DNA of 64,000 nt from an uncultured Flavobacteriaceae bacterium. GTDB taxonomy: Bacteria; Bacteroidota; Bacteroidia; Flavobacteriales; Flavobacteriaceae. Of this stretch, positions 13,529-14,508 are shown piece by piece. The stretch's first letter is position 1. Every line of letters starts with the position of its first letter. Where the stretch lies: NCBI GenBank assembly GCA_905479475.1, contig CAJQMT010000004.1, forward strand, positions 61,865-125,864, written 5' to 3'. The position numbers and the translations under genes were made by a program. Under the pieces are notes generated by a model, which ran no database searches, was not told the DNA's origin, and was given only the letters and a program-made list of their open reading frames with translations.

Positions 13529-14071
13529 TTAGTTACAGACTTTACAATCCGCTTTATTTTTTTGTTCACCTCTGAGATGTCCCTGTGCATCCAATTTGTA
13601 ATCACAGCAATCCATAAAACCCTTTTTCAACAAATCCCGGCCTCGTAAAATTCTGGATTTTGTGGCAGGGAGACTTATGTTCAGTTGCTGGGCTACTTCT
13701 TTTTGTTTGTAGCCTTTGATTTCGCTTAAATAAAGAACTTCGCTGTAAATATCAGGAAGGTTTTTGATGAGGGGTAACAAACAATCTTGTGCGTTGTGTT
13801 TCGGAGTTTCTTCAGTATCCACTATTTTTTTATGTGATAGGAGAACAACATCTTTTTGTTTTTTTCTAAAATGGTCGTTGACAGCATTGTTGGCAATGGT
13901 GTAAATCCACGACTTCAAACGGTCCTTTTTTTGTAAGGTTTTTTTTTGAAGGTGTATCTTTACAAAGACTTCTTGCAAGAGATCATCGGCTACCGGGGTG
14001 TCTTTAACTTTGCTTACAATAAAACGGTGCAATGTTGCCGAAAATTCAGCCCAAATTATATTTGTATCCAT
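13529..14071 (-). CDS. sigZ: RNA polymerase sigma factor, SigZ-like (ORF extends to 14125; MDTNIIWAEF start preferred)
   Basis: Region 2 (VADDLLQEVFVKIH...LKSWIYTIANNAVNDHFRKK), region 4 (YKQKEVAQQLNISLPATKSRILRGRDLLKKGFMDCC), Cys-bearing C-terminus. Confidence 0.85.
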   Translation of the reverse strand: MDTNIIWAEFSATLHRFIVSKVKDTPVADDLLQEVFVKIHLQKKTLQKKDRLKSWIYTIANNAVNDHFRKKQKDVVLLSHKKIVDTEETPKHNAQDCLLPLIKNLPDIYSEVLYLSEIKGYKQKEVAQQLNISLPATKSRILRGRDLLKKGFMDCCDYKLDAQGHLRGEQKNKADCKVCN

Positions 14072-14090
14072 ACAAAAGAAGCTTGAGGAG

Positions 14091-14192
14091 TTAACAGCCG
14101 CAATTTTGACAAGTGCACATTTCACAAGTGCAATTTGTACAGTTTTCGTTTTTGCATTCTTCGCATGCGCATGTGCAGTTTGTGTTTTTCAT
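14091..14192 (-). CDS. 33-aa cysteine-rich peptide, metallothionein-like
   Basis: MKNTNCTCACEECKNENCTNCTCEMCTCQNCGC, 11 Cys of 33; internal Met of the 14091..14291 ORF; 19 bp upstream of the preferred sigZ start. Confidence 0.6.
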   Translation of the reverse strand: MKNTNCTCACEECKNENCTNCTCEMCTCQNCGC

Positions 14193-14331
14193 GATATTCG
14201 GATTTAAATGAATAAAGTTATCTATAAGACGCGAACAAAGCAAAAAAGATGCACTTTTTTGGAAAGAATTTTTGAAAACAACAAATTCCATTTAGAAAGT
14301 TTATTTTTGCAGCAATCGTAGCAAGAAAAAA

Positions 14332-14508
14332 ATGAGTTCGTACAATTTACCGAAAATAGAAGAAGGCGATTTTTATTGGAATGAAGAGGGTTATCGAGTT
14401 TTTACAGAACAATATCATTTGAAGAGAGGGTATTGTTGTCGTAGTGGTTGTAAGCACTGTCCGTATCATTATGATAAGAAAACAGATTCCTTTTTAAAAA
14501 AAGAATAG
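14332..14508 (+). CDS. Small DUF5522-like protein, 58 aa
   Basis: MSSYNLPKIEEGDFYWNEEGYRVFTEQYHLKRGYCCRSGCKHCPYHYDKKTDSFLKKE; not in supplied ORF track. Confidence 0.8.
   Translation: MSSYNLPKIEEGDFYWNEEGYRVFTEQYHLKRGYCCRSGCKHCPYHYDKKTDSFLKKE

Follow-up and report, generated by a model that had tools for sequence, protein, structure and literature searches.

A conserved metallothionein-like peptide gene upstream of a SigZ-type sigma factor with a cysteine-bearing tail in Flavobacteriaceae

The peptide gene and sigZ

The DNA analyzed here (the window) is a stretch of 64,000 nucleotides from an uncultured Flavobacteriaceae bacterium that carries, on its minus strand, a very small gene followed by sigZ, encoding an ECF sigma factor. 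Translation of the small open reading frame (14192..14091; gene at 14091..14192, minus strand) yields MKNTNCTCACEECKNENCTNCTCEMCTCQNCGC, a peptide of 33 amino acids with 11 Cys, whose stop codon precedes the sigZ ATG by 19 nt. An earlier note on this DNA had reported this arrangement, and reading of the frames confirmed it. With 33% Cys in CxC and CxxC arrangements and no F, W, Y or H, the peptide has the composition expected of a metallothionein. It cannot be placed in a known bacterial metallothionein family by sequence: neither the window peptide nor any of 27 relatives scanned matched a Pfam or NCBIfam family, and comparison of PDB sequences with a profile of the relatives gave no credible match. 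Its metal binding is inferred, without binding data.

Loci for comparison were fetched from genomes of the same family, of which 200 were searched, and from other genomes. The peptide was detected in 35 of the 200 family genomes and SigZ, at E <= 1e-30, in 49. An alignment of 27 homologues from other genomes showed no change at M1 or at any of the 11 Cys, and the ATG and stop codon are retained, while numerous non-Cys positions vary. Both TGT and TGC occur at each Cys position; thus, it is the protein that is under selection, and the small gene is conserved and not a chance reading frame. In the fetched loci this form, here called type A (MKNxxCTCNCExCKxGNCxNCTCENCTCxNCNC), lies 19-250 nt upstream of SigZ, and the pairing is kept in more than 20 genera. 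Flavicella marina (L039), a culturable relative, is one of its carriers. Failure of the frame to persist in relatives that retain sigZ, proposed beforehand as grounds for refutation, was therefore not seen.

The sigma factor (13529..14071, minus strand; 180 aa) scored 170.2 bits against TIGR02959 (SigZ), above the curated cut-off of 168.65, in agreement with its earlier designation as SigZ type. Its score against PRK09637 (NF007215) was 185, below the cut-off of 212 for that family. Sigma70_r2 (PF04542) and r4_2 (PF08281) were the only domains found, and neither Pfam nor the structural model contained a separate large sensor domain. Conserved cysteines fall in two places. Cys97 (codon at 13781..13783, minus strand), in the linker between sigma2 and sigma4, is present in 29/29 SigZ labelled type A and 6/6 peptide-linked SigZ of a second type, B. 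The C terminus bears the motif C155-C156-x19-C176-x2-C179 (13535..13609, minus strand), a putative metal(loid)-sensing knuckle corresponding to the cysteine-bearing tail remarked on previously. Within this motif, C155, C156 and C176 are invariant in peptide-linked SigZ, and C179 is present in 97% of the proteins labelled type A and in 83% of those of type B. In an AlphaFold model of SigZ (mean pLDDT 88), the tail forms a helix end, a beta hairpin and a short helix, with mean pLDDT of 73-84 over the tail blocks. The model is compatible with a four-thiolate site in the tail, although distances between the cysteines were not measured.

Searches with Pfam and NCBIfam revealed no anti-sigma domain in the window neighbors tested. 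The absence of an adjacent classical anti-sigma gene, noted before, therefore holds for these neighbors, and the window SigZ adjoins no anti-sigma factor of the ZAS or membrane kind. A wider operon was rejected, as no third gene is conserved across 36 peptide loci; hence, there is no recurrent anti-sigma candidate. The neighboring genes for DUF1684, a methylmalonyl-CoA-mutase-like protein, MFS and Lrp look like syntenic background. Two further features of the surroundings were recorded. Just upstream of the gene pair, a divergent 58-aa Cys-bearing DUF5522 protein (CCRSGCKHC) is encoded at 14332-14508 on the plus strand, with no link seen. At about 15 loci (L070, L164, L167, L172 and others), an uncharacterized 131-aa protein (MNYNIPSHLSELPIYQKAMDILVLSRSISTYIN...) paired with an Lrp/AsnC regulator sits just downstream of SigZ or of the peptide.

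Promoter and predicted regulon

Upstream of the peptide gene lies a conserved element, TGCATCTTTTT-N11-CGTCT, in which TGCATC and CGTCT are separated by exactly 16 nt; ECF promoters typically show this spacing together with a -10 of the CGTC type. In the window the predicted SigZ-type promoter, TGCATCTTTTTTGCTTTGTTCGCGTCT, occupies 14227..14253 on the minus strand, with the -35 TGCATC at 14253..14248, a 16-nt spacer and the -10 CGTCT at 14231..14227, and the peptide ATG follows 34 nt further on. The search pattern was found in 33 of 36 peptide loci, and the element stands about 20-35 nt from the start codon in nearly all of them. The promoter put forward in the earlier note, TTTTTTG-N20-TAACTTTA, was rejected: its right half is shared by the closest genera only, and the element at 14253..14227 is the one conserved.

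The motif has a single exact copy in the 1.84-Mb genome from which the window derives. Allowing three mismatches gave 53 matches in this genome versus 35 with the reversed pattern, and given these counts and the lone exact match, no second SigZ target was accepted. Among 31 relatives scanned with the strict pattern TGYATCTTTTTN12GTCTNNT, 20 genomes had one match each, always at the peptide locus, and the reversed control had 1. With one mismatch allowed, the locus was matched in 25/25 genomes, and the few stray matches did not exceed the control. Besides sigZ itself, the peptide gene is the sole gene behind a SigZ-type promoter in the relatives' genomes. With one motif per genome, at its own locus, SigZ seems to act on no operon but its own. 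Such a regulon is inferred from motif occurrence, not measured; moreover, the scan used one motif strength, and weaker targets could have been missed.

SigZ relatives with and without the peptide

A maximum-likelihood tree placed the window SigZ in a clade of 27 rows, all with a type A peptide (support 99/91). A sister group, itself a single clade (100/98), has a different upstream peptide, type B (MNNCKCTNCxCTKCNCGNCLExxCxCSKCxCxKCxCC), which also lacks a Pfam family. In Microscilla (L043) and in one genome of the Dadabacteria (L044), the Cys-rich peptide that precedes SigZ is different again. Types A and B together with these two form one SigZ clade (98/92), and at every locus in it a Cys-rich peptide precedes SigZ by 4-250 nt. 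Elsewhere in Bacteroidota (L190, L191, L192 and L198, from other families, and L048/L009), unrelated small Cys-rich frames such as MKNLTECTCTECDCVVSPCGCDCCSS lie directly downstream of SigZ, and those of L191 have their own SigZ-type promoter.

Eight family genomes yielded a peptide match and no strong SigZ; several are incomplete, so SigZ may not be truly missing from every one of them. Five of these loci (L163, L165, L166, L169 and L170) retain 11/11 Cys without a detected SigZ or a visible ECF motif, suggesting that the peptide is valuable on its own. At L169, a CDF-like His-rich transporter is encoded two genes upstream of the peptide. Cysteines have been lost from the peptide at the syntenic place in L164 and L167, which looks like decay after loss of SigZ, and L168 is a weak peptide match. 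A separate irregularity was seen at L084 (G134:C3, around 142045-142774), where the SigZ frame contains an in-frame TGA, the peptide frame is apparently shifted and the promoter is intact; this state reflects either a decaying gene pair or assembly errors.

Of 46 SigZ loci (272 kb) that have neither peptide type, A nor B, 22 contain the same motif; the scan gave 29 matches, versus 0 in reversed sequence. These matches stand before sigZ or before the next gene, which is often arsM, encoding an arsenite methyltransferase, as in Bacteroidota (L178, L179 and L090), Acidobacteria (L042), Gammaproteobacteria (L046) and Desulfobacterales (L047). In Pelotomaculum (L049), arsM is preceded by one weaker motif. 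Elsewhere the motif precedes a gene for an ArsI/CadI enzyme (L011 and L188), followed in L188 by ACR3. NCBIfam searches of the representatives scanned confirmed ArsM (364 and 373 bits), ArsI/CadI and ACR3, and detected MerTP beside another SigZ. That genes for arsenic detoxification directly follow SigZ-type promoters in several phyla suggests responsiveness to metal(loid)s as a general property of the TIGR02959 SigZ factors. No paper tying SigZ to metals, arsenic or metallothionein was found in the literature. As an additional observation, one SigZ subclade (L080, L087 and L195) precedes genes for a small CC-bearing thioredoxin-like protein and a SaoE/Cu-Zn-efflux-like permease, and in L080 a SigZ-type promoter lies between SigZ and these genes.

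The identity of the inducing metal is a matter of inference. Of 25 peptide genomes, 20, among them that of the window, lack ArsM. One genome (G122) has two SigZ genes, one (L013, C1:464204) next to arsM (464811) and the other with the peptide (C1:1242017), from which the two kinds of SigZ probably answer different ions or doses. Arsenite was consequently rejected as a certain signal, and the peptide clade may respond to something else. We regard arsenite, on the basis of SigZ family context, as one candidate inducer; for the peptide clade, Cd/Zn/Hg or Cu(I)/Ag(I) are just as possible.

A proposed metal(loid)-response cassette and its relation to known systems

The peptide had been suggested to be either a metal buffer or a metal/redox sensor. 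The first role fits better and the second less well, because SigZ itself has sensor-like cysteines, the peptide gene is the only other gene behind a SigZ-type promoter, and at least five genomes keep the 11-Cys peptide with no SigZ found. The pairing is real, conserved and functionally suggestive: a peptide resembling metallothioneins is apparently controlled by a sigma factor that is devoted to it and probably acts as its own sensor. We consider it likely, with some reserve, that the elements observed (two conserved genes, one promoter per genome, conserved cysteines and, among relatives of SigZ, arsenic genes preceded by the same promoter) reflect a self-contained and autoregulated two-gene metal(loid)-response cassette, with SigZ as its own sensor and the peptide as output. 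In this scheme, a thiophilic metal or metalloid would bind the SigZ thiols (C97 of the linker and the CC-x19-CxxC tail) without an anti-sigma partner, the role of the tail as sensor being inferred. Ion-loaded SigZ would then join RNA polymerase; that metal activates rather than inhibits is likewise inferred, with relief as the alternative. The holoenzyme is predicted to recognize TGCATC-16-CGTCT, present in these genomes only before its own operon, and, if SigZ indeed uses this promoter, would transcribe the peptide and more SigZ. The 33-aa, 11-Cys peptide would bind and buffer the ion, presumptively a metal(loid) whose identity is undetermined, and as free ion drops the SigZ sensor would be stripped and the loop closed. 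Such a loop would explain why there is a single target, why the peptide gene comes before the sigma gene, why the peptide can persist after SigZ has gone, and why different outputs (arsM, arsI or peptide) stand behind a single type of promoter. Against it may be set the lack of metal-binding, expression or mutant data, and the fact that a Cys tail can also mediate metal inhibition, as in OrbS.

A role for the peptide as a small anti-sigma factor or metal-loading partner, binding the SigZ tail or handing metal over with no part in buffering, would account for its tight co-inheritance with one SigZ clade, the translational coupling possible across 19 nt in the window and the failure to find another anti-sigma nearby. 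We nonetheless think it unlikely. The peptides beside related SigZ (type A, type B, Microscilla, Dadabacteria and the downstream types) differ in Cys spacing, which is easier to reconcile with a loose metal ligand than with a protein interface. In addition, many of the non-Cys residues vary, five genomes keep all 11 Cys without a detected SigZ, and most arsenic-gene SigZ loci have no peptide. Slimmer support exists for a redox switch (disulfide or zinc release), in which thiol oxidants would be the signal for both SigZ and the peptide, and the latter would counter oxidative stress by buffering thiols or zinc. The Cys pairs of both proteins could form disulfides, and sigma/anti-sigma systems commonly have Cys-Zn sites under redox control. 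ZAS proteins are the example cited (PMC8999054). The targets behind the SigZ motif in relatives, however, are arsenic and heavy-metal genes (arsM, arsI/cadI and acr3) and not oxidant-defense genes, making this reading quite improbable. It is harder still to credit the peptide as a RiPP precursor akin to the copper-binding bufferins made by MNIO enzymes, which are known as Cys-rich RiPPs with a role in copper stress (PMC12452194): no maturase gene was found in the conserved neighborhood, and the MNIO family PF05114 is absent from 24 of 25 peptide genomes, that of the window included, a search that did not cover other maturases in trans. Finally, a spurious reading frame, with the conserved stretch an RNA leader of sigZ and its Cys pattern incidental, might be entertained for something so short, close to a promoter and unmatched in protein libraries, but is contradicted by the codon pattern, 11 Cys being kept as amino acids through silent codon change, with ATG and stop, in 27 sequences, and scarcely merits belief.

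Returning to the self-sensing cassette, a broader generalization can be offered only tentatively, as we stop just short of favoring it: SigZ may be a widespread anti-sigma-free ECF class that senses thiophilic metal(loid)s by its own tail and reads TGC(A/G)TC-16-CGTCT, with arsenic detoxification outputs in many lineages and one clade whose whole regulon is a metallothionein-like peptide plus SigZ, the product competing with the sensor for the same ion. If true, the cassette would be a minimal one-operon circuit by which a toxic metal or metalloid makes the cell produce its own metal-trapping peptide. The cassette would in addition amount to a new metallothionein family, of a length that ordinary gene finders can overlook. 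SigZ has so far been a name without a function; with a conserved promoter, a tail predicted to be a sensor, and outputs that concern arsenic or metal binding, its role can now be tested directly. A metal-response circuit this small (one sigma factor, one peptide and one promoter) could serve as a biosensor or buffer module.

SigZ of Bacillus subtilis shares the family name, and TIGR02959 has a match over cut-off in B. subtilis; a 2023 table of sigma factors gives it no function (PMC10141391). The closest parallels are CorE and CorE2 of Myxococcus xanthus (ECF238, formerly ECF44), ECF factors that respond to Cu and to Cd and Zn, respectively, with metal-binding Cys-rich C termini, a CXC in the linker and, in the cases known, metal-dependent activation (PMC8999054). 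Like them, SigZ has a C-terminal Cys cluster and linker Cys and no anti-sigma factor, and activation of SigZ by metal at its C terminus is an inference only. SigZ differs in its CC-x19-CxxC tail and single linker C97, as opposed to C-x4-C-x2-C-x-C in CorE, CC-x3-C-x2-C-x-C in CorE2 and the linker CXC, and does not qualify as CorE-like; it also belongs to TIGR02959 and is predicted to control a single operon, which encodes a metallothionein-like peptide. In OrbS of Burkholderia cenocepacia (ECF243), which is inhibited by Fe(II) and targets siderophore genes, a Cys metal sensor is likewise carried on board in the C terminus (PMC9023288), as predicted for SigZ. Its Cys spacing, C-x2-C-x3-C-x5-C, is unlike that of SigZ.

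Among bacterial metallothioneins, SmtA is regulated by an ArsR/SmtB repressor. The peptide resembles SmtA and PflQ2MT (PMC10612145) in being small and Cys-rich, with CxC and CxxC arrangements, and would be expected to bind several soft metal ions. It differs from both in having no detectable sequence match, a length of 33 aa with 33% Cys, and neither His nor aromatic residues, and in its predicted control by an ECF sigma factor instead of an ArsR/SmtB repressor.
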